Assembly: GCA_037042915.1 (NCBI GenBank)
Contig: CM073194.1
Span: 124,001-188,000, forward strand
Direction of reading: 5' to 3'
Length of the DNA: 64,000 nt
DNA from: Auricularia sp. M13
Taxonomy: Eukaryota; Basidiomycota; Agaricomycetes; Auriculariales; Auriculariaceae
In this document: one piece after another, positions 2,268 to 25,125 of the stretch
How positions within the stretch are numbered: position 1 is the stretch's first letter
Layout of the letters: each line of letters begins with the position of its first letter
Made by a program: the position numbers and the translations under genes
The notes under the pieces: model-generated
What the model was told of the DNA's origin: nothing
Seen by the model: the letters and a program-made list of their open reading frames with translations, nothing else
Databases searched by the model: none

Positions 2268-2274
2268 ATCCTCA
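2268..2274. repeat. Left target-site duplication ATCCTCA
   Basis: The 7 bases ATCCTCA lie inside the F-box coding sequence just outside the left end of the element and recur at 25119-25125 just outside the right end. An 8-9 bp duplication with a mismatch is also possible. Deleting the element plus one copy restores the F-box reading frame. Confidence 0.75.
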
Positions 2275-2283
2275 ATGGTACCG

Positions 2284-2358
2284 GGGACTTTCGCTTAAGC
2301 GATTGCCGCACTTTGTGCAACGCATCGGTTCAGCGATTCCCGCACTTTGGCACGTTTT
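2284..2358. repeat. Left terminal inverted repeat
   Basis: This stretch matches the reverse complement of 25031-25106 with only a few differences over about 75 bp. It contains CGCTTAAGCG (a 10-bp palindrome) and two copies of CCGCACTTTG. It is translated as the tail of the truncated F-box frame. Confidence 0.92.
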
Positions 2359-2399
2359 TGAAAAGTAAGTAAATGTAATCCGAGTGTAGATAGAGACAC

Positions 2400-2730
2400 G
2401 TTACTACTGTATAAATCGCTGGGCATCGCTGAGAACAGCGTTTTGGGCCGCTTGTGATCGCTGGGTTTCGGTTGACATCGCTTGAAATCGCTTCGCATCG
2501 CTGAGCTACGGAATCAGCACGGATAGAACAATAAGCCTCACCGATGAGGATATTCGGTAGGAATCAGTGGGCATCGGTGGAAAGTGCTGGCGCAGCGGTG
2601 TGGAGGGTACACAGCCAAAAGAAGCCTGTGCTTTCACCATCGCTTGTGATCGCTGTACCACAAAATCGCTGGAAATCGCTGAAGATCGGTAGACATCGCT
2701 AGTAATCGCTAAATATCCCTGCAAACTACA
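2400..2730. repeat. Left subterminal heptamer array
   Basis: More than a dozen copies of ATCGCTG/ATCGCT occur at irregular spacing (for example near 2413-2475 and 2640-2710). The right end has the reverse complement CAGCGAT in a matching zone. Mirrored subterminal arrays of this type usually bind the transposase. Confidence 0.8.
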
Positions 2731-2822
2731 CCGACCGTCCGCTCGCCTATTACATTAAAATATAAATAGCCTCCGATTTCAAGCCAAAATGCTATCTTTG
2801 TTTACGGAGTACACTGCATAGA

Positions 2823-5800
2823 TTATATGAGCTTGTACGCATGCTGAGGGCTGCGCATACACTCACGGTCAGAGTCGAACTCATTCCACTCTTCGGCTAC
2901 CTTGAACTGAGCACAGGCTGTAGCTCTGAGCCGCTTGACCTCCTCCAACATAGTGCCATAAAATGACGCCTTCTGGAAAGCATAGGCTGCAGCCCCTTGT
3001 GCAATTTGCCGGCTGCGCAGCTCATCGGCGGGCTGACGCTGCCACCGCGGAACATCGGGGCCGTAGTTTGCTGCCGCTGCTGCGGCAGTATGCTCCATCT
3101 CCTCCGCTTTGTCGCCCTGCTGGTTACCGATGGCCTGCCAAATAGAACGCAGTCGAGAAAAGTGCCGTTCGCTGCGCCCAAATTCTGCGCCCACGATCGA
3201 CATCTGTTCAGACCAGCGCCGATAATGGCCTTGCAAACGAAAATACCGGACGCGGTTGTCTATGCAGTATGTTAATTTTGCAAAGACAACTCTGTCCGTC
3301 GACGCACCGTCATCTGTCAGAAGAGCAAGTTTGCTTTTCTCCTGCTTGGAAACAAGCCCAACGTCCAGTTCCCCTCGCCAGAACCAAGCAACATCTCCCT
3401 TGGACTTGCCAACATTCAGTGGCTGAGGTTTGTCGACGGGTGCGTGAGCGCGCAGCATAGTAGCATCCAGATCCTGATAGGTTGTGTCCTCCCGGCTCAG
3501 ACCCAAGGCCCTGAGCGCGCTGAGATGCTCCGAATAGATATTGACAAAGACATTTTGCTTGGACTTCATTTTTTTTAGGTATGCTCTCGCTCTCGTCTTA
3601 CCACCCGTGCTGTCCACCTGATCTCGAGCTTCATCAGCATTGGAGCCGAAAAGTCGAATGCTGAATCGCAGGTTCGAGAGCGTGCCCTCAGCGTGTGCCT
3701 TTCGAAGCTCTCGCTCCATGTGGACCAAGCGATCTGGCACGCCATTCTCCTTCCGCTCCTCCTCGCTGAACCAGGAGGGTAGCATTAATGGCACATCCTC
3801 AGCGTAACTGGTCTCCTCGAGACTCTCCTCGTCTTCGGAATCACCGGAGTCGATTTCACCCTCCGTAATAGCCTCGGCAAGGTAAGGCATATGCCTGAGC
3901 TGCAGTCGGCGAAAGCTGGCTATGCGCTCGCTCAAGTTACGACGCTTTTGTCTCAGGCTCTGCTGAGCTTCCTTGTCCTGCTTATTCTTTCGTGCGTTGG
4001 CGGCTTTCCCACGTAGTCGCACTCTGCGCATGTTGAGCTGTAAACGGTAAATTGTTCAAGCCACGTACTGATCTTCTGCTAACTGCACGCCTTTAGCCAT
4101 CATGCCCACAACACCGCTCTTACGGATCTGTCCAGGAAGACGCTCCTCCCGTTCAAGCCTTGCGATGACGTCCTTGTGATTAGGGCCTATCAGTGCGTAA
4201 GTGATTGGCTCTTCACAGATTCGTTTGAACTTCACGGTTGGCAGGGTCAACACAGTATCGCCCGAGAATAGTATCGTCCTTGACCACCGCAGTCTCCGTC
4301 GGATACTCTGCTTCCCAGGCAGCTATGCGCGCAGGATCAATGGAGCTGGAAAACTCCTCAAATTCTGCCTTCGACACGGCGATGTGTTTGTGTGCTTCTG
4401 CGGCCTGGGAGTAAAGATATTTTGCTTGCAAATTTTCTAAGTCCTTGCCAACAGCAAATCGGCCGCACTCACCAAGTCCAACCAGTTTGTTGAAATTCCA
4501 GAAATTATGAACGTCGTTGAGGATGTCATGACGATGACCGGCGTTCGCGTCCCGACATATGGCTGCCGCGAGCTTTGTTTCTGCCCATGGCCGCTCAACC
4601 CCTTCTCCGCACGCTCTCCCAGCACCCGGTGTGTACAGAAGATGATAGACATATTGACACTTCTCACAATGACCCTGTATATGCATTTTGGGTATAACCC
4701 ACACGAGCTCTTTCGCGATCTGCTGGACGTCCTCTCGGTCGGGGAATTCGTCTCGCAAACGCCGCATGATGTTGATGCACAAAGAGCAGGCTCTGTCACT
4801 CGACAGTGCCCTTGGTAAGTCGGTGTCAGGCTTCGGCCCTTGGGCATATACCCAGCCATGGTCAATCATATAATACCTGAGACATTAGCATTTTTTAGCC
4901 GCAGATCTCTGTGCTCAGACGTACTTTTCGCCCAGCTTCAAGTCTACCATTCCCATCGCCGGGAAGCTGCTGTGACGTATGCAGCACACAGCAGACAAAC
5001 CCGAAACCTCTCGATTGCTGAGGTCCTGGATTTTATGCATTTTGTCGTATCCAGGACACGATCCGGCCTCCTGATAGGTTATTAGTACTGCTTAGGCATT
5101 TAATGAATAAATGGTCATGCCTGCGAAACATCGCTATTTTTGGACGTGTATGCTTCCCAATCTGAGCGTCGAGGAAGGAAAGCGCATCCGTCGAGCAAGG
5201 AAGTGTCCCCAGCATCCCGAAGTTTGACCTTCAAATAAACCTTGAACGATGCGTCTGTACCGTGCCACAGGATGAATTTGAACCTTGTGTCACATGAATA
5301 CATGAATCCTGGAGACCTGATCTCTCACCTGTGCTTCTCGTCGTTGGCCAAGTCACGCCAGCCCGGCTGCAGATTGAACTCTGGCTCTGGACATGCAGGG
5401 CAAGCGACAATGACCGAGCCGGGCCAACGATTGGCGGGGAGATGCCCGTCAATTCCCAGAGCCTGACCGCTTCGAAGCTGCATTTTAAGTACGCGCCAAA
5501 AGTGTCCGGCTCGAAGAAATGCATGATAGCCTTTCTCTCCGGGTATGAGCCAAAATATAATACCCTGAAGATCTAAACTCACTCTCTCCTTGCCGCGTTT
5601 ATTTTTCTGACACACGGCCTGCCAGTAGTCCCAAGTTGATTTTTTGCTCTGGAGCGACTCCAAGTGCCAATGCATCATAAGCTCGAACGTATAGCCGACG
5701 GTCGGTCGAGTGAACGTGCTTGGGAAGATGCGTGCCCGCATGAGCTGATGCACCAGGCTGGGCAGCTCCTGTCGAGGGCCGCGACACCGGCAGAGGATGA

Positions 5801-6608
5801 AGTTCAAGGTGTGATGACCATTCAGGTGTACCACGGTCATCGAGTGAGTGTAACGATGCTCAGGCAAGACTTCAGCACAGGCTTGAACCTCCATCAACGT
5901 TGTCGGGCACGCCGCGCCGTCGTGTCCAAGATGTACCTTGAATTGCGGGTGATCGCCTAGTGCGGCGGGCTCGAACGACGACCCGTTCCATTTCTCGATG
6001 GCGTGCAGCGGTAGACTCCCATGGTGCTCAAGGAAGCAGGTATGACAGTGGACGGAGGATCCGAAACAGTCAAGGCATCGATAAAGACGTTGTCCATGCT
6101 CTTCGCAGTCACAGACTTTGCCAACATCGTCATTCCACTCCAAGCTCATCATACCGTCCAGCAACTGTGCTCGTGCCCGTTCAAATTCTTTGTTGAACTC
6201 CGATGTAGTCTATACAATCAGCGTCAATAAAAGTATCACGCGTTAAGAGTCAAAAGCACAGCGTACCTTGCCATGGGATGTACCCACACCCCTGGCTCGC
6301 CCTGCCGTTTGCCGATGAGGCACCGAGCTGGGAGCTGGCTGGGAGGCTGTTGCGTTGCCCACTGGTAATGCACCCTGTGGGGCGCTGTACTCTGTACTAT
6401 GTACATACACTTCAGCAGCCTTGCGTTTCTTGGGACTCGTTACGCTCGAGGTACCGGAATTACCAGGCAGGGATGTTATCTTATGGGTAGGGGAGTGAAC
6501 AGAAGTTACATGCACAGACATAGAAGAGGCAGCATTATTTTGGGCGGTATAGACTGTTTGCGTGAGTTCTGGCGCTCGGATTCGGGGGCGCTTGCCGCGA
6601 GGCGGCAT
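2823..6608 (-). CDS. KDZ transposase with CxC2 cysteine cluster (frame-disrupted)
   Basis: Transposase of the KDZ superfamily (RNase H-like fold) that would cut and join the element ends. Exons: 6608-6267, 6209-5329, 5283-5130, 5070-4925, then 4876 leftward. Introns are 45-59 bp; that at 5071-5129 has a TACTAAT branch site. After a basic/serine-rich N-terminus comes the CxC2 zinc cluster (CDCEEHG, YRCLDC, CHTCFLEHH, LGHDGAACP). Next are the KDZ core motifs: DASFKVYLK, then MVDLKLGEKY with YYMIDHGW, then PKMHIQGHCEKCQYVY and CGEGVERPWAE, with candidate catalytic acidic residues. The C-terminal 400 residues are basic and helical. Two lesions: one extra base near 4260 shifts the frame between DDTILG and VLTLPTVKFKR, and an in-frame TGA sits at 4056-4058 (a very short intron is a weak alternative). 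The family call is firm; activity is doubtful. Confidence 0.9.
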
Positions 6609-6851
6609 CCTGTAAAAAACGCAGCTAGAGCTGCAGTCCTGATCACGATGTAATACGCCACCGAATGGCGGCGCATATAACCTACACCCACGAATGCAGA
6701 TGCAGCTAGCAGTGCTGGTGGTAACAGAGCCTAGCAGGCCGCACAGGAACGGCGAGTACGAAGGGAAGTCCGGACTTTGAATTCTGTCGGTAACACGCGG
6801 GCCATCGGCTGAGCTCGCAAAAGCCAGAACAATATTATTATTATTTCCAGT

Positions 6852-9103
6852 CTAGCTATCAGTGTAATCCACCCCTTTAGTGCATACTCTCTTGGGTCTC
6901 TGAGGTCCATTACCGGCGGTTGCAGGTACTGTATTTTTGACGGTGCGTGCAATGTTCCTAACTGGTGCCAGTCCACGTGCGGGTGCCGGTGCCGGTGCCG
7001 GTGCCGGTGCCGGTGCCTTCGACGCACGTGTGCGCATGGTACGATCGGAAGATTGGGCACCTGCAGCTCGCAGCCGTTTCGTTGGCTCATTGCCGCTGTC
7101 ATTGACCTTGCGCCTGTGGAAGACGTTAAATGCATTCGGTGTACTGCAAGAAAATACGTACTTTTTGCCATTTACAGCGGTTGATTCTGCGGGTAAGGGA
7201 GTGAGGGGCGATTCAGGGTCTACAGAGCGGAAAGCACTGCTGCTGGGCGTGGTGGGAACTATTGTTGGGCGCACAGGCGGCTGCTGCGTTGGCTGGAGCG
7301 GCTGTGCGGGCGTCTGCACCGGAGGCACGGTCTGGTCCGGCGATCTCGGCATCTGTTGCTCCGGCGGTTGAGTCTCCAGCTGAGGCGCCTGCTGCACCGT
7401 CAGCGGTGTCTGCTGCTCCGGCGGTCTGGCCGTTTGCTCCGGCGGCTCCGGCGTCTGCTCGAGCTGCAGCGTCTGCTGCTCCGGCGGTCTGGGCGTTTGC
7501 TCCGGCGGCTCCGGAGTCTGCTCGAGCTGCAGCGTCTGCTGCTCCGGCGGTCTGGGCGTTTGCTCTGGCGGCTCCGGAGTCTGCTCGAGCTGCAGCGTCT
7601 GCTGCTCCGGCGGTCTGGGCGTTTGCTCCGGCGGCCGGAGTCTGCTCGAGCTGCAGCGTCTGCTGCTCCGGCGGCTCCGGAGTCTGCTCGAGCTGCAGCA
7701 TCTGCTCCCGCAGCTGAGGCGTCAGCTGCGGAGTTTGCTCCATCATCTGCTGGTCGGGCGGTTTGGGTGTCTGCTGCATTGAGCTTGGGCCTGTTAGGTG
7801 GAGAAGTGATATGAGATACCAACCACTCGTACATCATGTGAACTTACCGCGAGTAGTGCGCTCCGCGACTTTGCACAAACGCTTGACCTCCGCAGCGTGA
7901 ATACCTACAAAAACGTCAGCGATCTCAACGTCAGCGATCTGGTGCACCTTCCAGATGGACCATACCTGGTAAAACCCGCATGCAGTAGTCTCTCAAAGCT
8001 TCGTCGTGCCGGTTATGCTCCATGCTCTTGAGCCACTCGCTAACTTTGCCTTTCCCACCTATACCCTGTAGTCTGTTTCCATGTAAGCCATAATGCAAAT
8101 TTATGAACACCAAAAACTTACGACTTTATTACCACGTTGCCAGTTGCAGGATCGAGTTGTGCAAGCTGGAAAACGGCCATGTTCGTCGAACGATACGAGA
8201 GCTTTCCCATAAGGTCGGCGATTTTTTGCATAAGCTCTTGCTCGATCCTATATCGGAATTAGACAGGGAGATGCGGGGATGCCGTGCTTACACTTGCTCT
8301 TGCGCCTCCAAGTTTGCGGGCGAAGTGCGTGCCGAGGACAGTTCTTGCGCGGCCAAGGAATATCGCATCTTCTCTTGCTCGTCCAACACCGCCCATCGGT
8401 CTGAAAGGACTCGATTTCGAACTGCAATCCGCTCCTGGTTCCTATCCGCAGCATCAAATCCGGCGGTGAGCCTCTCGTCAATTTCACGATCCAAGTCGGC
8501 CTTGATCATCCGCGCATACAGTTCTCGAGCGCTGTCGGCCCGACCTTTGTCTGTGGTCGTGGGAGGCTGAGACTGACCGGCCTGCAGTTCATGCTCGGGC
8601 GTTGCTGCAGTGCTGGCCCCCGTTAGCACGGATGACGAGGGTAAAGAATTTAGAAAATACGCACCTCGTCTTCGACGTATTGAGCGACTGTTCGTAAATC
8701 TTGATCCACACGCAGTCTGGGAGCGAGTTGTTACGAACGTCCTGCCGAAACGCCTTACACAGCTGTCAGCTAGGAGAGAAAAGCCAGCAAACAGTCTTAC
8801 CGTTCGAGCGTCTTGAGACTTGCAGTCTGCGTCATAAAGCTCGGGAAATTTGTCCACGATGTGATGCCCATGCGCCTCCCAGATGGGAATGATGTGCTGG
8901 GATGTGTATATGCGTACTTCTGCTTTTGATGCACCCGACCGCTTCAATTGGTATAGCTTATACAACTCGGGCTTGAGCTCTTGCATGCACGCTGGGGTGA
9001 CGACAAGATTGGGATCGCCAACCGTCCAGATAGGCCGCTGTACGTGACGCTTGCCCTTGCGTTTTTGCTGCGTCGAGGCGGGTGGATCATCCGGTGGCGA
9101 CAT
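6852..9103 (-). CDS. Uncharacterised transposon protein with Pro/Gln repeats
   Basis: No known domain recognised. The gene has about eight exons: 9103-8801, 8753-8665, 8612-8292, 8247-8122, 8072 onward, a short exon near 7860-7910, then a long last exon from about 7795. All introns are 44-60 bp and in phase. The N-terminal half begins MSPPDDPPAS, is basic, then has a mixed globular part (IWEAHGHHIVDKFPELYD). The middle is helical (DREIDERLTAGFDAADRNQE, IEQELMQKIADLMGKLS). The C-terminal half is low complexity: 21-residue repeats of the type QLEQTPEPPEQ, then Ala-Pro dipeptides and a basic tail (RPKRVCTKG). A 2-base loss near 7630 in one repeat unit shifts the frame relative to both neighbours, so this copy may be broken. 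Upstream exons beyond 9103 are possible. It lies between the transposase and another minus-strand cargo gene, consistent with an accessory role. Confidence 0.6.
7428..7700. repeat. 63-bp coding minisatellite
   Basis: About four units of 63 bp (21 codons) built on TCTGCTGCTCCGGCGG followed by GTCTGCTCGAGCTGCAGCG. They encode the Pro/Gln repeat on the minus strand. The unit at about 7630 lacks 2 bases, which breaks the otherwise codon-multiple period. Confidence 0.85.
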
Positions 9104-9470
9104 CTGAGCAGTCCACGCAACACCACGACAGGGGACATGCATATAAGATATCCTCTGAAATGATCGCCCGCATAACGCATTTACCGACAGGACATGACCG
9201 GCATTAACGATCTCGCCGCAAAGGCCATGGAGATGATAACGTACATACCGCACCGATTCCCACGGACTTCCCATTTGATTTGGCAGCGAAGCACACAAAT
9301 CTGAGTGTAGTAAGCTATGTCTGATGCCCCAATGGCTTACCCTGCTCGATCTGCATTTGATCTCGCGTAGGACTCAGACCCACTGTGCCGCTTAACATAT
9401 TGGTGTTTCAGGTTGCCTCAGTCGAAGTACTGCAATTGATGGATGCTACAGGAGAATATCTCTCGATCTT

Positions 9471-10754
9471 TTACGTGCGTACGATTAGCTTCAGCTGTAC
9501 GTCAGTCACCTCCGTCACCTCCCCCCCCTCTGCCTCATTGTAGATATCATACTGTAGAGCAACGTCAGGTCCGTCGTTGATGCGGTCGTCGGCGACATCT
9601 TCGATACCAAGGATGGTGCGCGCCTCGTCCGAGAAGTCCTTGAGATAGAATCGGCAGTCGGCCATCCTGAGCCGACGGCGCGGTAGCTCAACGACACACC
9701 AATCTGCGCCGTCGCCGTCCATCTCGACATCCTGGACCTGTAAAGAATGAGAAAATTGTCCATGAATAGAGAGACAGCACTGCACATACAAAGTTGTGCG
9801 ACAGGAAGTAGCACTGCACATGCGCGAACACATTGCCGAGGGTGTCCCAGTCCCGATCGTAGTGGAGCTCCTCCGGTCGTAGATCGGTGACGTGACGTCC
9901 GAGCTCGGCGACGTCGACGTAGACCATGAGGCGCAGAACCGCGGTATGGGCGTTCAACTCATCGTACATTGCGTGCCCTTTGTAGAAGGCCAGCTGGCCA
10001 GCTATGGGATCGTCATCGTCGTCGTCCGCGTCGTTATAGTATATGCGGTCGAGTGTGATGTTGTCCAGTCGCAAGTCCTGCATCGTCCGGTCGCTGGTGG
10101 CCAGCTCGTGGTACTGCATGAATCGGCGTTTGCTGGCCCGCGTGCACATGGTGACTGCATAGGTCTTTTTGCCCGACGGGCGGACGGGGCTGCCCTGCAG
10201 CAAAGGATGAGCTCAACGTCGCCGATGGGGAGGGAGTACGCACCACCCAAACATGCGTGCAGGATATATGCAGCTTGATACGGCGGAGAGCGCGGAGATC
10301 CCGAACGTCGATTTCCTGGAGAGGTTTTGCGGGGCGGTCCGGGTACATGGCCTGGCCACGGGCAGTATGGGTGCGGAGGCGGCAGCGGACGCGAAAGATG
10401 GCACAGCAGTCGCCGCACAGCATCAGGGAACAATGGATGTCGCTGAGCCCGCGGCAGATGAGGCAACGCCCCGGGTTTTCGAGGGAGACTTGGACTTCGT
10501 TCGGGCTGCGGGCGTGCGCGAAGCTGAACGGAATGACGGTGCGGGCGGTTGAGAGCTGGTAGATGATACCGTGCTCCTTGCACTATGACCGGCCGTGAGC
10601 ATGTTTGGGCGCACTCGAGCGTTGGTGCACGTACCGCGGCGACCTGCATCGGCGTTGTACCACGGTACACTTGGTACCAGCGTGCTGCATGGCCGCATTC
10701 CGTCACGGGGCAGAGGACGTCGGGCTCGTTGCTGATGATGGAAGGGAGCGGCAT
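9471..10754 (-). CDS. Cys-rich uncharacterised transposon cargo protein A
   Basis: Four exons with GT..AG introns in phase. The start is MPLPSIISNEPDVLCP at 10754. The N-terminal 130 residues hold paired cysteines and histidines that look like a zinc ribbon or RING-related fold: CPVTECGH, CKEHG, CLICRG, CGDCC. The junction from the first exon (..PMQVAA) to CKEHGIIYQLSTAR is by a clean GTACGT..CATAG intron. The next exon reads GSPVRPSGKKTYAVTM and then an acidic globular region with a run of aspartates (NDADDDDDDPIAG). The last exon (VQDVEMDGDGADWCVVE) ends at 9471. I do not recognise the family. The Cys pattern suggests a nucleic-acid- or protein-binding metal site; this is inference. Confidence 0.6.
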
Positions 10755-11129
10755 GTTGCACGTTCGAGGGCCCGTGGGGTGCGGAATGACTCTGTGGCAG
10801 CCACAGCGCAGACGCCATATAAGTGGGGGTCACGCTGGGTCACACGGCGAGAGGCAAAAATGTATCACGGCAGGTACCGGTGGGATCATGAGCCCGACCG
10901 AAGCGTCCGTTGAATACAGATATCGCTTAAGGACCTGGTTGCGTCGATCCCTTGAGATGGGAGATTCTCTCACGTTTCAGTGGGTAATGTAATAAACCTC
11001 GGGGTCCTAGCACAGCGTTAGAGGTCCATCGAGCGAGGTCTTAGGCACATAATTATCCAAGACTCACCAGCACAGCACACGGTGTGCGCCACGAACTCCC
11101 CGCCATGCCGCTCATCACTGTACCTCGCC

Positions 11130-12161: not shown

Positions 12162-12279
12162 ATTAGATACTATGACGGCATGTGATTGCGAGTAAAGTAC
12201 CTTAGTGCACCCCTATACTTGAAGGTCTATATAAACCCGCGCACGGCGGGGCTCGCTAGTATTAGCCCTTTCCCTCCTG

Positions 12280-12770
12280 CACTTGAGCCCGCCCCGAGCT
12301 TGTGCACCGCTGATTCAACCGCGTTACTACATCATGACATCACATGCCGCCCTCGTCCTCGCACCACCCGCGCGCACGCACTTGAGCCCGCTCCCGAGCT
12401 CGTGCACTGCACGCACTTGAGCGCACCGCCCACGCACTTGAGCCCGCCCCCGAGCTCGTGCACCGCACTCACACTTCGCACGCACTTGAGCCCGCTCGCA
12501 CGCACTTGAGCCCGTTCCCGAGCTCGCGCACTGCCCGCACTTGAGCGCACCGCCCACGCACTTGAGCCCGTCCCCGAGCTTGTGCGCCGCGCACACTCGC
12601 GCACACTCTTCGCACGCACTTGAGCCCGCACCCGAGCTCGTGCACCGCCCACGCACTTGAGCCCGTCCCCGAGCTTGTGCATCGCGCACCCTCGCGCACA
12701 CTCTTCGCACGCACTTGAGCCCGCACCCGAGCTCGTGCACCGCCCACGCACTTGAACCCGTTACCCAGTC
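12280..12770. repeat. GC-rich minisatellite, CACTTGAGCCCG type
   Basis: At least ten copies of GCACTTGAGCCCG(C/T) followed by a variant of CCCGAGCTCGTGCACCGC lie between the Cys-rich gene and the dioxygenase gene. Frames on both strands are open through it only because of composition. Longer units of about 100 bp repeat twice near 12560-12750. Confidence 0.85.
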
Positions 12771-12986
12771 GTGTACCGTCTCGTGCTCGCGCACCCGACT
12801 GAAAATTGTTAGCCTGGGGAATCATGCAATGAACGTACTACAATTATAAAAATTCCCCGCGCAAGAAAAATAAGTTGGCTCAGAATATCTTCTATTTAAT
12901 TGAAAAGAGACTTACCATTGGAATTTGTTCAGACGATAACACTGCTCCTGGGTTCATACGATGTGTTTTTTGCGGAAGGGTCTACA

Positions 12987-15489
12987 TCAATCGCGAGAAT
13001 AGTATTGAACCAGCTGATCAACAGTCAGAAGATCAGCCCAGGCTAAGTCACTCCAACTCTTCGCCGCGCGCATATACGCCCGCTTCTCCTCATCCGTCTG
13101 CAGCTCATTCAAACATCTTTCGCCCGCACAACGCCAACGGAACAATCCACCAGCGGTGTAGAAAGTCCACGATTGCCGATACTCATGTGGCTTCAATGGC
13201 GCGTTGCCGTGAGTGATGAGCGCTGACATGACGAAGAGAATATCGCCCGGGGCGAACTCGACGACGACGTTGGGCTCCTTCATGATGAAGTGGCCCGAAG
13301 TCTTCGCGTTGTATTTGCCCATGGCGATGATGGTGCAAATGCCCTGCTGCATGTTCATAGCGTCGCGATGAAAGAGCGTGGTGACCTATACACCGTCAGT
13401 CAAGACGGACGCGCAGAAAAAGATATAACTCGCCTGCGGACCGAGATTGAAGGTCATAGCCGCGAAATAGTAGTTGAAAGGCTCTCCATCTTCATCTTCA
13501 TCATCGTCGTCCAGGCGGAACGCTTCATTGAGGTTCAGATCCTCGTTGAGCTGGCGATACTTTGCCATCACTTCCGGGAACGCGGTCGTGGCAGATGCTA
13601 ACGACCATCAGCACGCGTGCTATGAACCGACATGCACGTACTTTGCGCGTACTGGACGACACGGCGAACTTTCTTGTCCTTGAGGAAGCCGCCGATGAGT
13701 CGACGATTCCGTTCCTGCCGTTTGGTGCGCTTGAAGTCGCTACCGATGTCCGACGAAAAACGAGTCGGCTTCTATGGGGCTCTCAGCCGCGAGCAAGAAT
13801 GAGCCAAGTGCAGAACACACCTTTTGACCGCCACCAAAGGAAGTGCCGACCTGGATTTTCGAAAAATTGCCGCGCGTGTTCGTGCTGGGCGAATTATCCT
13901 CGTGTATTATGACAAGCTCCTCCTGCAGACGCTTCAACTCTTTCGCGCAATGACGCTGCGCCTCCAGATAGCCGGGATCTGTGCATGCCGGCGCCTTGAC
14001 ACAGTAGATACGGCCCTTGTTGTCCGTCATGATCACGCCCCTGCAAAGTATAATTATGAGCATGACCCGCGGCAGGCGCAGTAATAAGCGCACACACCTT
14101 TCATCTGCAACAACGTAGAGTGCGCCCTGCTTCTCCACAAGATCGCGTACCATCGTCGAGATGTTGGGGTCTAACGTCGGCGGTGTGCGGGCAGACGACG
14201 TGGAGCTTTGAATCTGTTCCTCGCGGAACTTGGATGGCGCGATGAACGAGCTCTTGCCGGTGACGTGAGACTTGACGTCGATGTTGGACTCGACGCGGAC
14301 CGCCTGCTCGATCTGTTTTGTTGCATGGGCGGCGTTGGGTTCGCCCCGCGCACGTTGCTTCAATCGGTGACGCCGCGCAGCGCGGCGTTGCGCATCGGTC
14401 TTGGCCTTGGGCACCACGGACGTCCGCCCTGCTTCTGCGCACCCACAGCGGACGTCCCAACTTGCTTCTTCGTGGACGCAGCGGGCGTAGCGACTTGCTT
14501 CTTCGTGGGACGCAGCGGACGGTTTAGCTTGCTTCTTGTTCTTCATCAGCCGCGGTACCTTGCCCGGGCGATGTTCTGGACAAGAGCAGTGTAAGGCAGC
14601 GACGACGAACAGCGTGACAAACACACCGTCTTGCTGTTGGGAGTCATCGGTCCGACGTGCGTCCTGCGCTTGCGCTTTTGCGCGAGAGCACCTTATCCCG
14701 CATAGATGAGCTCGGTAATATGCACAACACAAAGAACTCACGTCGCTGGTCATACCGCACAATCTGCGGCGGTGCCATGCGAATAACACGCCCGTCGCCG
14801 AGCATAACATCGCGCCCTAGACCTCATCAGCATTACGCTCGAGAATACCAGACAAACATACCATTGCCGCGTGTAGCGGGAACTTGGTGTTGCAGAGGAC
14901 GGTGGAGGGCTTTGGTGCGCGCTGAAAGCTGGGGGACCAGGACGCACACCTCCCGGAACATAGGACTTGAGGTAGCTGTACGGGCAGCAAAGAGATCAGC
15001 GCATGGCGCCGTGTCAGGTGGAATACATACCGCGCGGAGCAAGCAAGGCGGGCGCTGAAGAGCCAGACGTGTCACGATCACCTGCAAGAGCAAAGTTAAC
15101 GATAGCAAGGGATGCAGCAAATTTGCTGACCTCTATGCCCCGCGGCGAGCGTCACACTAGCTGCGGGCGCGAAGTCAGCGCTGTTCAGCGGATCATAAGA
15201 TGGACTCACCCTTGCGCTTGATGCGCACAGGCTCCTCGCGACTGTCCGAACTCTCCGAGCCCGACAAGTCTGAAGGCTCATACTCGGAGCCAGAGTCCTC
15301 CAGCGAGCTGTCGAAGCCGTATTTTCTAGCGGGCATGAGGTTGACGGCGAGGTTGAGATCTGCGTGCGGATGGACGTCACGCGCGGTGAATCCGTCGAAT
15401 TCACCGATCTCAGCGGCGCGCGCGATGAGGTCGAAGTCTGAGCTGATGACAGGGGCGTCGTTGACGAAGCGGCCGCTGCGAAGTTCCAT
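12987..15489 (-). CDS. TET/JBP-family 2OG-Fe(II) dioxygenase
   Basis: Enzymes of this family oxidise methylated bases in DNA (5-methylcytosine to hydroxymethyl and further forms) using Fe(II) and 2-oxoglutarate in the nucleus. The catalytic double-stranded beta-helix is at the C-terminus. Fe ligands are visible as the H-x-D of LFHRDAMNMQQGIC and the distal His of SALITHGNAPL; the 2-oxoglutarate Arg is in HEYRQSWTFY. The flanks FNYYFAAMTFNLGPQ and TAGGLFRWRCAG fit the fungal TET/JBP group. The N-terminal exons, starting MELRSGRFVND at 15489, have an acidic serine stretch and basic blocks (KAKTDAQRRAARRHRLKQR). Most junctions are phase-consistent 45-60 bp introns; the intron just before LFHRD appears to be GC-AG. 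The junction near 14730 is unsure, so the part upstream of 14546 could be a separate gene. The catalytic region itself has no lesion that I can see. Confidence 0.85.
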
Positions 15490-15926
15490 CGTGGGTGGGG
15501 AGTGTAAGTGACCTTCCACAACGAGCGGTCTTATATGGCCCGCCCGAGCATCCCCTCGAGTGAGAGGGGTAATGCTGTCGGGCCGCGCGGAATGGTAAAG
15601 AAGGAAATGGATCTAACTATGAGGTCAGTCAGACGCCTGGGCGCTTCGACTGTGCTCACCAGGGTTTCAGGTCTTGAGCCAGAGTTGGATGAATGCATGT
15701 GTGTTGTCGACGATGATGTACCGTGACTGATTTTGCCGTTCGGGGTCCTTGACGTGCTCGTTCGGCCGACATCAAAGGAGATGATTGTGATTTTGACCGG
15801 AGAAAAGGTCAGACGGAACGCATGGAGATTGGCGCATGCCGAACTGCGCAGACGATCGCCAAGGTAGCGTGTGAAACATTTGCGGCTCGCAGACAGGAGC
15901 AGCTACAGCAGGCGTAACAAATATAT

Positions 15927-18066
15927 ATGCCGATGGCGAATTCGGGACTTCATCGTCAGACCCGCAGATCGAACGCGCACCCATGGAGTCCAAAGCCTCT
16001 CATCGTCGCGGCGCCACAACAGCACGCGCAGAAGTCCGCTAAGCCTATTGCTCTCACGGTGATTTGTCTCTGCTATAGCTATTCAGCAAGCTGACTAGCT
16101 CGTGCAGGTCGCACACGCACGTGCGGCATTACACACTGGCAGCCAGGTATGCTCTTCTCGACTTCACGAACCGCAGTTGATGGACAGCTTTGCAGGTAGG
16201 CGAAGGGCACGGTGTGGCTGCAAATCGCAAGGTACGCGCATTAATATACTGGTGCTGCCGAGGCGAAGTCGTGCTTACAATATTTTACAGAATAAGGCCA
16301 AGACGCCACCCGCAGACGTGATCATGATCTCGTCCGACTCTGAGGATGAAGTTCCCACGCAGGCGCATTCGACGTCGGCCACGTCGCGTCGCATCCGCAA
16401 GCCGAGCACCGTCATCGAGATCTCCGATACCGAGGACGAAAAGACAGACGATGGGAAGAGTCCTTGCGACTTCGGGTTCGACTTAATCAACGGCATCCTG
16501 GTTGAAAAAGACGCGTTAGTGCACAGGTCTCCAGCACTTGACGATTGTACTCACAGCACTACAGGACGACGTCGCGGCGGTCTCGGTGAGCGAGGGTGCG
16601 CGGTCCACACGCACGCTCGTCTCGAGAAAATGGCTGTCGACGGCGACGCTGCCGTAGCCGCTGAGGCTAACGAGGAGAGCGAGGAGGTTAGGCGACACAA
16701 AGCTGCATGGCCTTGACACTTACGTTCTCTTTGCAGGAGTTCGATCCCCAGCTTCGCGCTGGAAACAATGGTGAGTACAGCATTATAGTTGGTATATTTT
16801 ACTTACGGCCTGTGGTGCAGGAGGTTGACACGCAGCAACACGCGCCGAAGCTAGCGGCACTGCAGCGGGAGTTAGAGAAAGTGACAGCTGATCTGGCGGC
16901 CGAGGTACGTACGCACCGACATGTCGAGACGATCCGCGAGCTAACAACTTGCAGCGCGAGGTCAAAGAGAACAGCCTAGCGTGCTTCTGCGCTGCGGGTG
17001 CACAGGTACTATAGGTGAGTTCTATGTTTGTAGCGCCCGCAAAGTGTACTTACTCGGGATGTAGCTTGCGATGCGGACACGGCCCGTTCCATCTGAGCTG
17101 CCTGCAGCAAGCTCATGCGCAGCACGGCCGCTACCTCTACCGGGCGCCGCAGTGCCGACATGCCGTGCCACGATACGGCAGAAGCCCGTGGAGAACTGGA
17201 ACTTGCGGGAGGCGTGCGAGCACGGCAACTCAGACGCCGACCCGGATGAGGGCTTTGACACAACCTGGCTGGATCGCGTTGTATGGGGTCGTGCCGCACC
17301 GCGTAGAGTACCCAACGACGCGCCAATTCTCGACGAGCTGCCGCTCCCGCTTGGATTCGTACCCGCCGCGGCGGCACCGGACGATCCAGCTGACCCCGAC
17401 TATCAGCCCAGCGACGAAGAGCAGTGGGCGGACGAAGGCGATGTCGACATGCTCGAGGACGACGATGATGACGACGACCGTTCAGAGAATGGTTGGATGG
17501 AGGCGCTGCCGGTGACGCTCGACTATTTCAATCATTTTCCGCGCGACCTCCACCTGGATCCGCCCGTCCCCCACGCGACGGTTGACCTATTGACCGGCTG
17601 CGCCGATGAGCTCACGTTGTGGACATACGAGTATCGGGACATACTCGATGATCTATCAGGAGACACGGCTGGTGTGATTGCCAGGCTGGTCGACGCCATC
17701 CGCAACGCTCGACTCGAGCGTCTGGCAGAACATCTTCCCCGATTGGCGTACGGCATGGCGCTCGATTATGGAACCGTGCGCGCCGAGCAGGACGCCGCCA
17801 TTCCCGAGCTTGACCGGGCCACGCTTGACCTATTGACGGGCGATCAGCGCGAGCTCGAGCTGACGGTGATGCGCAACGCGTTTGCGCTGGACGGTGACGA
17901 ACCTTTGATGGAAGACAAGGTGGACCAGATCTTGCCCTTCGTCCACCACCGCATTCAGAAACTCCAGCCGTACCTGCCCCTGTTGAATTTGGACGGCATG
18001 CGCGAACTCCGCCGTATATCCGCCGCGGCAGCGCGACGCGGCGCGCTCCATATGATCACTGCGTAG
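15927..18066 (+). CDS. SIM-SIM, coiled-coil, RING protein (STUbL-like)
   Basis: Likely an E3 ubiquitin ligase that recognises SUMOylated proteins. The start is MPMANSGLHRQ at 15927, followed by several short exons. Two textbook SUMO-interacting motifs follow: VIMISSDSEDE (about 16319) and TVIEISDTEDE (about 16408). A helical, charged stretch (LAALQRELEKVTADLAAE, REVKEN) predicts a coiled coil. The RING-like finger has CTYSGC, LRCGHGPFHLSCL and, in the next frame, PTCRATIRQKPVENWNLR. The expected Cys-Pro pair before TCRA is lost through what looks like one missing base near 17156, so the gene may be inactivated or the assembly wrong there. The C-terminal 280 residues are acidic (Asp run at about 17460-17480) and hold two related segments ATVDLLTG and ATLDLLTG. 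SIMs followed by a RING define SUMO-targeted ubiquitin ligases; the assignment here is inferred from architecture. Confidence 0.68.
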
Positions 18067-19795
18067 TTCGCTTTTAGCTATCGGAATATTTTCAGAATAA
18101 TTTCATTACCTTGTTGCCTGCCACCGAGCTCAAGCACCACGAGAGATCCGCCCGCAAGACGAAGTCCTTGTGCGGCGGGATGTGGCCGGCCATTCATGAG
18201 TTACCGAGTTCGCCGCCAATTGCCGGGCGCCGGACTTGGGCGCTTCGGACTTGCGGGCGCTTCGGACTTGTGCTTGAGCGCGCGCTTCGGAGTTGGGCGG
18301 CCCGGAGTTGGCGGCGCTCCGGATGCTTGGCACTTCGGGCGCTTTGGACTTGACACTACCTGTGCTTGATGCGATTCAACCTATGCTCGACGGGCTTGTC
18401 GGACGATGCAATGCCGGCGACAGCACGGACCTTGGGTCTGGAGAGATAAGGAAGTCTGCCAATACTATACAAACACAATATGAAAACACGACGCGAGGTG
18501 ATATGGGAGATGCGGGGTAATACTACGAAGCACACATGCGACAACCGCTGGACGACTCGTCGACACCCCGTGGCCTATCTCATATGAGCGTGAGCACCGG
18601 TGTGGGCGAGAGAGGTAATACAGCTGACCTTATTCTGAGACCATGGCAAGCGCCAACCTGCGGTGCGTGAGGGCAATGCCAAACATCGCACGATGACGGT
18701 CAAAACATACCTGCCCTACCGATACAATGGCAGCCGATCTGGGACTTCACGGCGTGAGAGTGGGGCCGAGCAGACGGAATGGGTGGGGTGTAACATACCT
18801 GGCACAGGCATTGGCACCGGAGAGACAAGACCTCGTAGGACGTCAGCGCGCGTTGCACTCGTATACAACAAATATTCATACCTCACAAACAGCGTCAACG
18901 GCGATAAGAGAGCCTCAGAGAGGCCAGGGAGTTACCTGTGAATAAATGGCTGCGTCGGACACAAGCGCGACGGCGAGATTTCCAAGGCGCGACGTACCAG
19001 ATCTCGACTCGCGAACCATGCCACATCGTGGGCCCATACCGAGGCTGGGCGTTGGCCCATGGCTCCTGAGGGCGGCTGCCGAATGGCAGCCGCCCACGAT
19101 GCAGCGATGGTGGCCGATGGTCGGCGCGACCAGCAGATAGGGGCCAGCGGCCCGCGCGAAAGGATCGACCGCTCCCGAATGGGAGCAGCCCCAACAGCCA
19201 GGCAGAGGCGCCGGCGGCGCAGACAGTGTCGATGGCGCCGGGCTCGAATGAGCCCGTCGCCGGTGGGTGGTGGGGTGGTGGCGGGCGAGGCGGGACGAGA
19301 GCGAGATTGGCCAAGTCCGATTCGGACTCCGGCTGAATCTCGTCCTCCTCACGCCAAGTCCCGCCCCAGCAGCCACTGCCCACCGCCCAACACCCACCGC
19401 CCGCCGCGCCCCGCGCCGCGACGACCAGCACCAGGACCCATCGGCGCGTGCATTCGTGCGCGTCGACATCATCTGCGCACCTCCATTCGGAGGTGTGCAA
19501 TCGTACCACCGCCACCGCCAGCGCAGGCTTGCGCTTCGTCCTTGACCCTGGGCTGCAAGACCCCGCACACGTCCCACCCATCCGCTGCTACTCTCATTCG
19601 AGAGTGGTGGCCCTTTATTTCGCTCAGTTTCTTTCTTGGTAGGTCTATGCTGCGTCGATCTTGTGCTACTGCTCATCGCCGTCGGCGACGGCCACACTAT
19701 GCAGGCATCGCGGCCTCAGCCTTGTCCCCGACTCCAACATTATTAAGTGCTTCAATTTAAGTGCGTTTATCTGCAGTTTTATTGTGTTTTTGCAT
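18067..19795. other. Non-coding spacer inside transposon
   Basis: No gene supported. The first part (18120-18360) has loose repeats of TTCGGACTTG/TTGGGCG. Large open frames lie on both strands at 18900-19760, but they mirror GC-rich composition and lack recognisable protein features. The segment 19070-19605 carries the hairpin cluster listed separately. Confidence 0.55.
19070..19605. repeat. Cluster of short hairpins with GAAT/ATTC loops
   Basis: Five inverted repeats share a 4-base loop. GGGCGGCTGCC-GAAT-GGCAGCCGCCC is at 19070-19095 (11-bp perfect arms). GCTCCC-GAAT-GGGAGC is at 19171-19186. CGGGCTC-GAAT-GAGCCCG is at 19239-19256. GCGCACCTCC-ATTC-GGAGGTGTGC is at about 19475-19498 (one mismatch). 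ACTCTC-ATTC-GAGAGT is at 19590-19605. The arm sequences differ, but the loop is GAAT in the left three and its complement ATTC in the right two. Confidence 0.7.
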
Positions 19796-21060
19796 GGAGG
19801 TTGTCACGGCGGGCAAGGCGAGCCAAAGACTATCGAGGCGCGTGCGGGGAGCACATGACAGCCGCCACGGGGCGCCGTGCACATGCGGCAGCCGCTCCGG
19901 GCACGCGGTAGATGTTTATGGCGGGCGCGGCGAGCCGGGGACGTTGTTGGTGGGCGCGGCGAGCTGGAGACGGTCACGGCGGGCGAGGCGAGCCAGAGAC
20001 CATCGGAACGCGTGCAGCGAGCACATGACAGGCGCCTCGTGGCGCAGCGCGTATGCGGCAGACGGACACGGCGGGCGCGACAAGCACGGCGGGCGCGGCG
20101 AGCACATGACCGGCGCCTAGGGGCGCCGCGCGCATGCGGCTACCGCCCCGGCGGGCAGCAGACAGACGCGGCAGGCGGCAGACAGACGCGCCGGGCGCGA
20201 CGAGTACGGCGGGCGCGGCGAGCACATGACCGGCGCCTAGGGGCGCCGCGCGCATGCGGCTACCGCCCCGGCAGGCAGCAGACAGACGCGGCAGGCGGCA
20301 GACAGACGCGCCGGGCGCGACGAGTACGGCGGGCGCGGTGAGCACATGACCGGCGCTGCGGCTGCCGCCCCGGAGGGCGGCAGACAGACGCGGCAGGTGG
20401 CAGACAGACGCGCCGGGCGCGACGAGTACGGCAGGCGCGGCGAGCACATGACCGGCGCCTAAGGGCGTCGCGCACATGCGGCGGCCTCCCTGGCGGGCGG
20501 CAGACAGACACGGCGGGCGTGGCGAGTACATGACCGGCGGCTAGGCACGCCGCGCGCATGTGTCGGCCTCCCCGGTGAGCCGATGTTGACGGGGACCGGC
20601 GAGCCAGCAGAGTCCGTCATGGCGCGTGTAGCGAGCACATAACAGCCGCCTCGCGGCGCCGCGTGCATGCGGCGGCCGCCCTGGCGAGCCGGAGATATTC
20701 ACAGCGCGCGCGGCGAGCAGGAGACGTTTCGGGCGGGCGAGGCGAGCGGGAGACCGTGATGGCGCGCGCGGCAAGCACAGACAGCCGCCGATGCGCCGCT
20801 CGCACGACGACCGACCGCGGCGCGCGCGGCAGACGTTCACTGCGAGCGCGGCGCACATGACATGCGCCGCGGGACGCCGAGCTCGTGCGCGGGCTGCTCG
20901 GAGAAGGTTCACAGCGGGCTCGTGCGCGGGTTGCGCGGAGGGCGTTTCAGCGGGCGAGGCGAACACATGACAGGCGCTGCGTGGCGCCGCGCGCATGCCG
21001 CAGTCTCCCCGGCGAGCCGCAGTTGTTCACGGTGGGCGCGGCGAGCCAGAGTCTGTCGTC
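19796..21060. repeat. GC-rich minisatellite with 120-bp units
   Basis: Units anchored on AGCACATGACCGGCGC begin at 20101, 20221 and 20341 (exact 120-bp spacing), with shorter or degraded relatives at 20442, 20524, 20635 and about 20959. Nested in it is the tandem AGACAGACGCGGCAGGCGGC. Open frames on both strands here are artefacts of the repeat. Confidence 0.88.
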
Positions 21061-21246
21061 GCGCACGCGCAGCATGTGGTGGGCTCGAGAACTCGTAGGA
21101 CAGCGAGCTCTTCGGAGCACAGGATGGATTTGCGGGCGATAAAGAGCAAAATGGCTGTAGTCTAACGAATATCCAGCTCACGGATTCCTGATCTCGCAAG
21201 CCCAAGATGAGCGCTGTGTGACAGTCTTCCTTGTTAGCTGCAGCGG

Positions 21247-24200
21247 GAGCTGACCTGCTTGCAGAAACCATTCGAACCGGACGTGTACGACATGCTGGAC
21301 ATCACCCCTGGGTCCGTCCGGCCGCGCGACGTTGACATGGACGACCGCAGCGGCGACCCGATCATCCAGCATCAACAGGGCGATCTCGACGGCACTGCTC
21401 CGACCAGCACCCAACTTGACGACGTGGAGGACGGACTCGGCGACATCCATGTCGGCGGAGATGCCGACGACGTCAACATGCAGGTGGGTCACACCCACAA
21501 GTGCAGGCGATGGGCGCGCCGCTAACATTTCTCACAGGATGACGGGCGCGGTGTATCAGACTCTGCAGACGTGCCCTTGCCCACTTCCGAAGAGCAGGTA
21601 AGCATACGATCCAACGGTCGTTGACATCAGATTAAATCGACGGGTTTAGGATGCTCCCGGATACCATTCGCGCGCGCGGCGACTCGAAGGAGGCCGTGGC
21701 CACGCTTTCTGCGTCATGGCGCCCGCGGCTCGACAACGATCCATGGCCCTGCAAGCCGCAAGCTGTCGCGTTCGACTCCGAGGCCAAGCGATATATCTAC
21801 TCGTTCTCCCGGGGCGAGCCCATCCCGGACCTGCCCATCAACGAGTACCCGCGCCTGCGCACAGACTTCCGGCTGGGCGTACACGATCCGATGCAGTACC
21901 CTCAGTACTGGCAGCCTGCGGCACCACACATGGCGTGGATTCCTCTGGTCAAGCCGCACCGTGACCTGTACGGAGAAAACATCACGGGCTATGTCATGCA
22001 GCCCGAAGACTGGCTGCCGGTGCAGGACTGCGCTAGTTACGGGCGCCTGGGGCGGCCATTGCTGGCGCGTTTGCAGGACTCGTTCTATGAGATATACGTG
22101 CTCGTGCTGCCTCTTCTGCGGACGGCAAGGACGCGCATCTTGCTCCCCACCACCACCATCAACGACTGCATCCGCTTGCTGTCAGACTTCCAAAGTCTGA
22201 CAGCAACGTTCGCGAGACCGCTGTGTCCGTCACCCGCATACAACGCGGCATCGCCGAGCTCCGGGCTTTCAGATTGTTCAGGCTCGACGTAAAATATCAT
22301 GTTGGCGATGAACGCTTTGTATCGGATCGCATGTACGACTGTGTTGGCGTCTTCAGCACGGACAGCGCGATGGTGACGCTCCTTCACCGTCTCGGGATAC
22401 CCGTTTGGTTCGTCTCAAAATCCATGCCGCCCAATATGAGGAAAGACCAGCTGTCACGCGTGTTTGAGCACTTCCGCCGAGTTGAGATGACGCCAAGGGA
22501 CGCTCTCGATACCGAGGGACGAGATTGGAGTGGGGTTGTGTATCGGCCACCCACCCCGCCGTATTACCGCGACGACGACGAGCCGCCTGTGGGTACACCA
22601 CGACCCCAGGACGATGAGCCAATTGATGAAGCACCTGTGCGTGGACGTGAGCCCGCAACACGCTCAGTCTCCCGCGATCGCTCGCGGTCTCCGAGGCCCG
22701 GACGGGCACGTCCACGAGCACGGTCGCCGCCACGCACAAGAACGGAGCCAGCGTCAAGGGTGCCTCAATATTTGCTGAGGGAAGAGCCTCGTTACCCTGG
22801 TATGTTTGTGGGTTGGTTTCGGTGCCCTTGCTCACGCGTTTGCTTTAGCAGGTAGCAAGTCGCATCGTCCCGCAGACGCTCCCCCGGCGTGGATCGCACG
22901 GACCTGGGAAACCGACCCCGGGCACCAGGCCAAAGAGAACCCTGCTCTTCCAGAGTGGGTGCCGCGACCGCCAAAATGGCTTGCGCACGTCGCGTCTTCA
23001 GTGGACCGCTCTCGAATGCGCGAATATCGGCTATGCGCAGCCGACGTTCTGCACCCAGTTCCGCAGGCGCGATTTGGAGAGCCTTTACAGTATACCATGC
23101 CGCCCTTCCACCACTTCGTTGCGCAGAAGGAGAGCCGCATGGTCTTCGTCTTCAGGTCCTGGGTTGCGTTGCGCAACTTCTGGCTGCGGCGCATCATTCG
23201 CGACGGCTTCATTGGCTTATCGGCTAAAATATGGCGGAAAGTTCTTGACGACAAGTACCATACAACCCCGGAGCACGAGTCCTGGGTCGAGGTGAACTGC
23301 ACGGGCCTGGGCATCAAGGCTAGCGGCGTGAACAAAGCCGCCTCGCTCACCAGCGGGCACATATCCGCTGCACAACGCCACCGCCACATCGACTCTTGCC
23401 GGGAATACGGATATGAGCTCAGTTCTGCCGCCTGTCGCCGCCGCTGAAACTCGCCCCAGCACGGCATATACACGGCTGCCCTCCGAGGGCGAGGATCTTA
23501 TTGTAAAGAGCGTGCGGCGTTTGCCGAGCCGTACCAATGGAAGCAGAAGGTCAAGTTTGCTTCGGTTTTCTTCGAGCGCATCACTGGGCACATGTATGCA
23601 GCGGATACCGCAGACCGCGAGCTCCTGCTGACCGGGGAATGGGATGAGTTCTGGGATTACGAGAGCTGCCGCGTGCTGCTGTTCTGCAAATCGTCCCGCG
23701 TACCAGAGGAGGAGGCTGTGGGCGAGGACAACGAGATTCTGCTCGACGCGAGAATAACTTGACCTGGCACCAGTCAGTGGCAGATGCTGATGGCCTGGCC
23801 TCCGGCTCTCGCGCGATGTGGATGGCCGCCGTGCCCCTTCGTTGGGTGTGTGTTATCTTTCTGTGGCCGAATGCTGCTAATCAATGCATATAGGAAACAG
23901 CTGTGTTCGCTGGGCGCTCAGCTGCTGCTACGCCGAACCCCCCAACGCAGGGTGCAGATGCTGGGGCGGGCAATAAGCCGCCGCCCGATCCAGTGTACGG
24001 CTACGAGGCCGAGCAGCCGAATGGACGCGCAACGAAAGCCCTCTTCATCGGTCAACATTCTCTGGCCGAAGAGGATCTCGCTCGGGCCGACGTGCGCGCG
24101 TTCCTGGTGTGGGAGGTGCAGGAAACCTCGTTTCGATTTCAGCTGCGGGACCTCGACACCTACATCCTCAAGTCGCTCAAGATCTGGAACGACGCTGTGC

Positions 24201-24529
24201 GGCAGGACCGCGAAGCTCTCTGGCTCAAATGCTGGGGCGGGCAAGACGGATTTGTACCTCTAGGATTACAGCAGCCGCCTCACACCGACCCTAACCCCGA
24301 GAACCGCAAGGTCTCGATATATAGCCTGTGGAAGATCGTGCGCGCGTGGCCGAGATGCCGGGAGGTTACTAACCTCCGGCGCTACACTGCGACAGAGGGT
24401 TTGTCGATGGAGAAGTTGCTCGATATCGAGCGGGAGGTCTGGAGCTTCTACGCGCAGAGCTTCCAGGATTATTTCGGGATTCTTCCCACTCTGCCCACCG
24501 TGATGCCCCCCAATCCGTTCGTCGAGTGA
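21247..24529 (+). CDS. Large Arg-rich uncharacterised transposon cargo protein
   Basis: The first recognised exon opens after a splice acceptor at about 21246 (LQKPFEPDVYDMLDITPG); the true start is probably further upstream and not found. Two GT..AG introns (about 21484-21538 and 21600-21650) lead to the main body: an aromatic- and proline-rich region (PINEYPRLRTDFRLGVHD), LLHRLGIPVWFVSKSMPPNM, an Arg/Ser/Pro tract (RDRSRSPRPGRARPRARS), then RSWVALRNFWLRRI and a C-terminal part ending TLPTVMPPNPFVE. The motif GIPVWFV and the RNFWLRR segment recall large uncharacterised proteins that are common in mushroom genomes. Frame problems: an in-frame TGA at 23445-23447 with the same frame continuing (HGIYTAAL.., KVKFASVFFERITGHMY), and shifts near 22200 and 22800 that may be introns. 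No enzymatic motif was seen. Confidence 0.6.
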
Positions 24530-24689
24530 TGTAATGTAGATACGTTCTCAAATCGCTTCTCGTAGACTCTGCTTTGGCGAAACGACTGTATAGGACGCAC
24601 TGCTGTAACAACGCTAACATGTTCCGTGATTTTGCAGCCGTTCTTAGTTGCTTGACGCTGGGGTACGCGGCGGTAGGTCCAAGGTTGCC

Positions 24690-24980
24690 CGCATAGCTAT
24701 GCTCAGCAATGCGCAGCGATCCTCAGCGATGCGCAGCGATTCTCAGCGGTGCGGGGGCTGATCGACCGTGTCAGTATTTGTGCATGGTCCAGCGATGCAC
24801 AGCGCTTCTCAGCGAGGCTCCATGTTAATTCAGCGATTCCAAACTGTGTGAGTGCTAACCGAATGTTGCTCAGCGATTATCAGCGAGGCTCACTGACATG
24901 CGAGCGCTGACCGACTGTGCTCATATTTAAGCGACCTCAAGCGATTCCAAGCGATTCCAAGCGATTCCAAGCGATTTAAA
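24690..24980. repeat. Right subterminal heptamer array
   Basis: Many copies of CAGCGAT/AGCGAT (for example CTCAGCGATGCGCAGCGATTC at 24730-24750 and four consecutive AAGCGATTCC units near 24935-24975). They are in reverse orientation to the ATCGCTG copies at the left end. Confidence 0.8.
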
Positions 24981-25030
24981 TAATATTATTCGATAGCTAG
25001 TACCATTACACTACAGATGATTGTACACTG

Positions 25031-25106
25031 AAAACATGCCAAAGTGCGGGAATCGCTGAACCGATGCGTTGCACAAAGTGCGGGTATCGCTTAAGCGAAA
25101 AGTCCC
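25031..25106. repeat. Right terminal inverted repeat
   Basis: Reverse complement of 2284-2358, with about 50 bases in the middle identical. It ends outward in AAGTCCC. Confidence 0.92.
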
Positions 25107-25118
25107 GACACAGCTGCA

Positions 25119-25125
25119 ATCCTCA
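25119..25125. repeat. Right target-site duplication ATCCTCA
   Basis: Second copy of the 7-bp sequence at 2268-2274. It lies at the point where F-box coding sequence resumes (PQLLLSEL). Confidence 0.75.

Follow-up and report, generated by a model that had tools for sequence, protein, structure and literature searches.

A 64,000-nucleotide stretch of the genome of Auricularia sp. M13 (C2:124001-188000 of an assembly of 52.1 Mb in 14 contigs; hereafter the window, to which positions without a contig name refer) holds at 2273-25116 what is very probably a Kyakuja-like cut-and-paste transposon of the KDZ class, 22.8 kb long, which carries a conserved set of genes and interrupts one member of a near-identical pair of F-box genes. 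Its transposase gene encodes a KDZ transposase domain (PF18758; E=1e-25, 91.2 bits, cut-off 26.6) and a CxC2 zinc cluster (PF18803; E=1.7e-18, 67.2 bits, cut-off 27), its two ends recur together at ten other places in the genome, and an uninterrupted version of its insertion site lies on the same contig.

Ends, target duplications and copies of the element

A search of the genome with the left end returned further copies and one place matching the flank only. Six further large copies were compared in full with the window copy, and four more two-ended copies were read at their ends only. The comparison of the six full copies set the ends at CAATGGTACCGGGGACTTT...GTCCCGACACAGCTG, giving the following structural features.

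2273-25116, no strand: whole element, 22,844 bp, 5'-CAATGG...CAGCTG-3', from copy comparison and end-pattern searches
2266-2272, no strand: left target-site duplication CTATCCT; ends taken from 11 two-ended copies, CTATCCT occurring once in the empty site (locus L009, below)
25117-25123, no strand: right target-site duplication CAATCCT, one base unlike the left copy
2284-2358, + strand: left terminal inverted repeat (TIR), inner pairing part, itself two ~34-bp units
25031-25106, - strand: right TIR, pairing with the left arm
2410-2715, + strand: left subterminal array with approximate edges, its ATCGCT-type units often spaced at 10 bp
24695-24975, - strand: right subterminal array in mirror orientation, AGCGAT on the + strand; edges approximate

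The exact 21-base left end is present at 12 places in the 52 Mb and the exact 15-base right end at 11, and reversed-pattern controls of both gave 0 matches in the same 52 Mb. Left and right ends (the end pair of the family being CAATGGTACCGG / CAGCTGTG) pair into 11 two-ended elements: the window copy of 22,844 bp, nine other large ones of 22,708-28,101 bp and one short element of 4,653 bp. A perfect 7-bp target duplication flanks all ten copies other than the window's, both the six compared in full and the four read at their ends. The short element (C7:621701-626353, with its ends in L053 and L054) has the same ends and the perfect duplication TCATTGC, and is probably non-autonomous. The unpaired left end belongs to a copy at C10:3642359 (L055), which begins 5.7 kb before the contig end at 3648102, has no right end and is cut off by the assembly or by the chromosome end.

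The TIR arms at 2282-2358 and 25031-25107 are 77 nt long and 92% complementary; counted from the true ends, pairing runs from about base 11 to base 86 with one gap (~76 bp), and each arm is built of two ~34-bp units. Inside them, there are 12 copies of ATCGCT in 2273-2760 and 10 of AGCGAT in 24641-25116, compared with 0.2-0.3 expected from a first-order Markov model of the same stretch, and in the 21.9 kb between the arrays these motifs occur only 4 and 5 times. The same array polarity, counted as the 5-mers TCGCT/AGCGA, was found in all six other full copies.

A preliminary description made from the letters of the window had recognised a KDZ element with TIRs, mirrored subterminal arrays and ends that should recur in the genome, all of which these data support. 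It had also placed the boundaries at 2275-25118, flanked by a 7-bp duplication ATCCTCA. The size and place of the element and the existence of a 7-bp duplication stand, with both edges moved by 2 bp and the duplicated sequence corrected to CTATCCT/CAATCCT. The 7-mer ATCCTCA is indeed present at 2268-2274 and 25119-25125, because the start of the element and the right flank after the duplication share CA by chance, in addition to 5 bp of the duplication. Both pairs of boundaries suit the empty site equally well, and 2275-25118 was rejected since the ten other two-ended copies place the ends 2 bp leftward.

Gaps left out, the six full copies are 99.3-99.9% identical to each other, a near-identity that suggests recent movement of the family, and 87.8-88.3% identical to the window copy. 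Identity between the window copy and that at C7:440k is uneven, at ~95-99% over the transposase and parts of gene H and 54-70% in the repeats near 20 kb, an unevenness for which constraint or recombination between copies, or the two together, may be responsible. Gene G of the copy at C1:6148150 (C1:6163159) is 96% like that of the window, other long family matches being 74-88%, which together with the uneven profile hints at recombination between copies, the C1:6148150 copy perhaps being a mosaic of window-like and other sequence. The other full copies show scattered 1-base insertions or deletions (indels) in the exons examined, with none in gene C over 9790-10194. Nine to 19 of the 15-35 1-base indels per copy lie at homopolymers of at least 3 bases, above the 17% background, and some are probably sequencing errors. 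Larger insertions interrupt transposase exons in the copies at C6:811k (1,273 bp) and C2:2680k (494 bp), and the C4:1660k copy has ~1.1 kb extra near window position 12168.

The interrupted F-box gene and its empty site

The element separates the two parts of an F-box gene that is followed by a paralogue.

1097-2272, + strand: F-box gene, 5' part, open frame, by comparison with L009
25124-25534, + strand: F-box gene, 3' part, by comparison with L009
26060-27699, + strand: neighbouring F-box paralogue, whose L009 counterpart is an open 536-residue frame

The uninterrupted copy (L009, C2:482000-490000) matches window positions 1-2274 and 25119-29439 at 99.3% identity each, and these matches share a 7-base overlap. 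Its F-box frame is open over 528 residues from stop to stop and scores 22.9 bits with PF00646 (cut-off 20.5) and 23.3 bits with PF12937, just under the cut-off of 24.3. Across the insertion site it reads HYPQLLLSEL, so that the restored frame predicted earlier from joining the two halves is read in a natural sequence, and the split of an F-box gene holds as well. The empty site suggested as a check in that earlier work was found within the same genome, as a duplicate or misplaced allele, and not in another strain or species. No excision footprint was seen in L009, so the insertion most simply postdates the split of the two copies of the F-box region.

L009 might instead be the other allele of a dikaryon, put in the same contig by the assembler, with the insertion then being an allelic polymorphism. 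Its divergence from the window (99.3% identity) is allele-like, and similarity varies along the region, where the near-identical duplicate corresponds to window positions 1 to ~48000: in short samples it is 93% leftward over C2:122600-124000 with none at C2:478k, and rightward 98% at C2:495k and 500k and 85-95% in pieces at 510k, with none at C2:505k, 515k, 520k and 524k. Both copies, however, are on one contig, ~360 kb apart, in a 52-Mb assembly of only 14 contigs, and a segmental duplicate is the likelier of the two; we consider the allelic explanation rather unlikely. The reading of the element is unaffected whether its empty site is an allele or a duplicate.

Gene content and its conservation

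The interior of the element holds the following genes and repeats.

2823-6209, - strand: KDZ transposase gene, with exons modelled at 2823-4023, 4069-4186 and 4236-4869; CxC2 lies in a frame farther upstream, 5328-6209
8118-9103, - strand: modelled gene of 276 residues with no Pfam-assigned function; gene model, and third-position bias in open reading frame 8291-9373 (p=9.5e-8)
9471-10754, - strand: gene C, 374 residues modelled; gene model, third-position bias and genome-wide places
12990-14040, - strand: TET/JBP-like 2-oxoglutarate (2OG)-Fe(II) dioxygenase gene, 3' exons 12990-13385, 13434-13597, 13642-13771 and 13821-14040
17065-18063, + strand: gene G, 333-residue open frame; third-position bias and genome-wide places
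21636-24529, + strand: gene H, multi-exon, model incomplete; third-position bias, and homologues beside other KDZ transposases too
19795-21070, no strand: internal tandem repeats, rich in G+C and less conserved than any other part of the element

Gene H is divergently oriented to the transposase gene. In the TET/JBP-like gene one intron, read by eye, is GC-AG, and the 5' exons are uncertain, the model extending to 15489. Pfam searches of genes C, G and H and of the 276-residue model gave no match over the cut-off. Tandem repeats lie inside the element at 7329-7738, 12352-12780 and 19795-21070, with units of ~21/63 bp, 58 bp and 120 bp.

The substitutions that separate the window copy from the C7:440k copy were counted by codon position in each frame. 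Third positions predominate among them in frames of the transposase gene, the 276-residue model, gene C, the TET-like gene, gene G and gene H, with counts of 24/32 for the last TET-like exon, 61/98 for gene G, and 22/31 and 23/33 for two frames of gene H; in the transposase gene the bias is significant in 4216-4884 and 5328-6209. This is the pattern that would be expected from purifying selection on the proteins.

The distribution of these genes in the genome, counted from hand-merged match lists, follows the element. Close TET-like genes (12 of 12 places), gene G (12 of 12) and gene C (12 of 13) are confined to this family or its two diverged cousins, and for gene H, 17 of its 19 places have a KDZ match within 23 kb, the nearest such match being in divergent orientation at 16 of the 19. 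One cousin (C2:2290002-2312478, ends in L080 and L081) is 22,477 bp long with a 7/7 duplication, CAATTTC, and has the gene order of the window element at similar spacing, protein identity to the window being 76% for the TET-like protein, 45% for H, 44% for G (91 residues) and 35% for C. Its inverted repeats measure 346 bp and are 100% identical, and its termini, CAGCTG...CCATTG, are of the same two types as in the window family with their positions exchanged: the KDZ side ends in CAGCTGTG and the H side in CCATTG. The exchange looks as if the interior had flipped by recombination between the inverted repeats. The second cousin, near C1:4677134-4710064, has the same genes at wider spacing. For a possible compact two-gene element of KDZ and H (C2:4.64M compared with C6:0.17M), no ends could be assigned; one side matched through all 3 kb compared, and on the other the match stopped, at 88% identity, with no end to be recognised there.

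The dioxygenase is likely a distant relative of TET/JBP enzymes, judging from its protein sequence. An HxD...H iron triad and a downstream arginine (H6, D8, H59 and R70) are invariant in ten sequences, that of the window and nine relatives from the genome, the arginine being a residue with a role in 2OG oxygenases. Several results limit the confidence of this identification. The last exon matches PF12851 with E=1.8e-4 and 21.2 bits, below the curated cut-off of 34.9, and the spliced sequence, at E=6.4e-5 and 22.7 bits, is still under it. A phmmer search of the PDB gave nothing at E<=1; in a profile search of the PDB the four best rows were Naegleria Tet and CcTet (E 0.18-0.64), with two unrelated Ifi204 chains close behind (E 0.67-0.70). 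Alignment by hhalign to seven TET proteins of the genome, L028 (which matches CcTet at E=2.7e-11) together with six others aligned to it, reached E 0.00096 at a probability of only 22%. AlphaFold models were poor, with a mean predicted local distance difference test score of 57.6 for the window exon and 46.4 for the relative L059.

The motif of the window dioxygenase is HRD (HxD) and not the HxE of PE-type TET enzymes. In a gapless by-eye reading after HRD, the equivalents of CcTET residues 331 and 337 are N and C, and thus not the Gly/Ser331 and Asp337 of the AG type. More distant TET-like cousins, 37-46% identical, were found at eight places (L057-L062 and two further ones) with no listed KDZ match within 35 kb, and are possibly host genes or parts of other elements. 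The genome has at least 149 matches to the KDZ domain and 19 to PF12851, only five of the latter with a listed KDZ match within 30 kb.

Affinities, alternatives and proposed mechanism

The published systems are compared here as they appear in the parts of the cited texts that were consulted. Kyakuja elements have 7-bp duplications, 5'-CA..TG-3' termini and AG-type TET genes (Kojima 2025; PMC12730594), and TET-carrying Kyakuja elements, Kyakuja-1_LB and Kyakuja-2_LB among them, are already published. The window element resembles them in its KDZ transposase, CA..TG termini (found in the window copy, the ten other copies and the cousin at C2:2290002-2312478), 7-bp duplications and internal TET/JBP-related gene, and differs from the AG type in having N and C, on the gapless reading against CcTET, in place of Gly/Ser331 and Asp337. 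The consulted text on Kyakuja (PMC12730594) makes no mention of genes C, G and H. Zisupton elements, with 8-bp duplications and reported TIRs, and the Dileera family Zisupton-1_PGr, also with 8-bp duplications (PMC12730594), share the KDZ transposase domain and, for Zisupton, TIRs; in duplication length they differ from the ten other two-ended copies and the cousin, which have 7 bp. Pleurotus KDZ elements are accompanied by CxC2 (PMC7641404), and the TIR motifs of Marasmius KDZ and Plavaka elements are stated to be in a supplement (PMC8290104). The Cryptococcus elements KDZ1, KDZ2 and KDZ3, which were shown jumping into a gene, likewise have a KDZ transposase and TIRs (139-241 bp), but are 9-11 kb long, carry CxC1 and not CxC2 and make 4-8 bp duplications, and the consulted text mentions no TET-like gene in them (PMC12810828). 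Starships are also large gene-carrying fungal elements, classified by a tyrosine recombinase captain where the window element has a KDZ transposase. A literature search, with most subscription papers, figures and supplements outside its scope, found no large KDZ element with such a gene set. The points of difference from the published TET-carrying Kyakuja elements are the TIRs, a TET-like enzyme lacking two AG-type residues, the conserved gene set and the end swap.

Several features of the window copy and its family weigh against the Kyakuja-like reading. The target duplication of the window copy matches at 6 of 7 bases (CTATCCT and CAATCCT), and the outermost ~10 bp of its two ends are unpaired. 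Two Laccaria families of Kyakuja are reported without TIRs (PMC12730594), unlike the window element (~76 bp) and its cousin (346 bp), though this absence may not define Kyakuja; the assignment rests on termini, duplication length and CxC2. At 87.8-88.3% identity to the six full copies, the window copy draws no support for its own mobility from their near-identity, and the scattered exon indels make it uncertain which copies are intact. Lastly, the transposase frame 2826-4055, which covers the largest exon, is below the threshold of the third-position test, and some opposite-strand frames also pass it.

A cluster of smaller transposons, in tandem or nested, might be argued for from the five or more genes of the interval, its internal repeat arrays and strongly uneven identity profile, and from the 4.65-kb version with the same ends. 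Such a cluster is extremely improbable, given that ten large copies (22.7-28.1 kb), among them that of the window, have the same two ends with a duplication directly outside (6/7 in the window, 7/7 in the other nine), that the six other full copies align end to end with the window copy and that the cousin repeats the layout at 22.5 kb. Within one and the same element, the internal genes could still be passengers captured from the host and not a functional component of the transposon. Genes C, G and H and the 276-residue model have no Pfam match over the cut-off, and a gene like that of the dioxygenase could have been captured, given the eight cousins lacking a listed KDZ match nearby. Yet the close TET-like genes, G and, in all but one place, C are confined to the family or its two cousins, H keeps company with KDZ matches, mostly in divergent orientation, order and spacing are kept in the cousin at 35-76% protein identity (C, TET-like, G and H), and substitutions in the internal genes are biased to third positions. 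We hold a passenger origin to be improbable; 'cargo-carrying', as the preliminary description put it, is right in that internal genes are present and undersells genes that keep their order and spacing in a cousin and show third-position bias.

As a KDZ enzyme, the transposase would be of the DDE type and act by cut and paste. For the Kyakuja-like transposon favoured here, we infer that the transposase, with its CxC2 zinc cluster, would recognise both the TIRs and the ATCGCT arrays that mirror each other, and would insert the element at a cut staggered by 7 bp, giving rise to the 7-bp duplication. Along with the transposase, the element carries gene C, the TET/JBP-like dioxygenase and genes G and H as a conserved set, in which the dioxygenase, by oxidising methylated bases, would shield the element from silencing that depends on methylation. 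A further proposal, drawn for its flip from the single cousin at C2:2290002-2312478, is tentative and to us somewhat doubtful: the elements would form a lineage with a fixed set of about five genes, in which an unclassified TET-like enzyme and its companions C, G and H act as an anti-silencing or transposition module and the interior can flip between non-equivalent ends.

For a large and apparently recently moving KDZ family, these analyses provide maps from end to end, target duplications and a natural empty site, with which it becomes possible to test what the TET-like enzyme and genes C, G and H do. They suggest that Kyakuja-like elements hold a greater variety of TET-like genes than the reported type, and that the additional genes carried by such elements belong to the transposon itself instead of being casual cargo.

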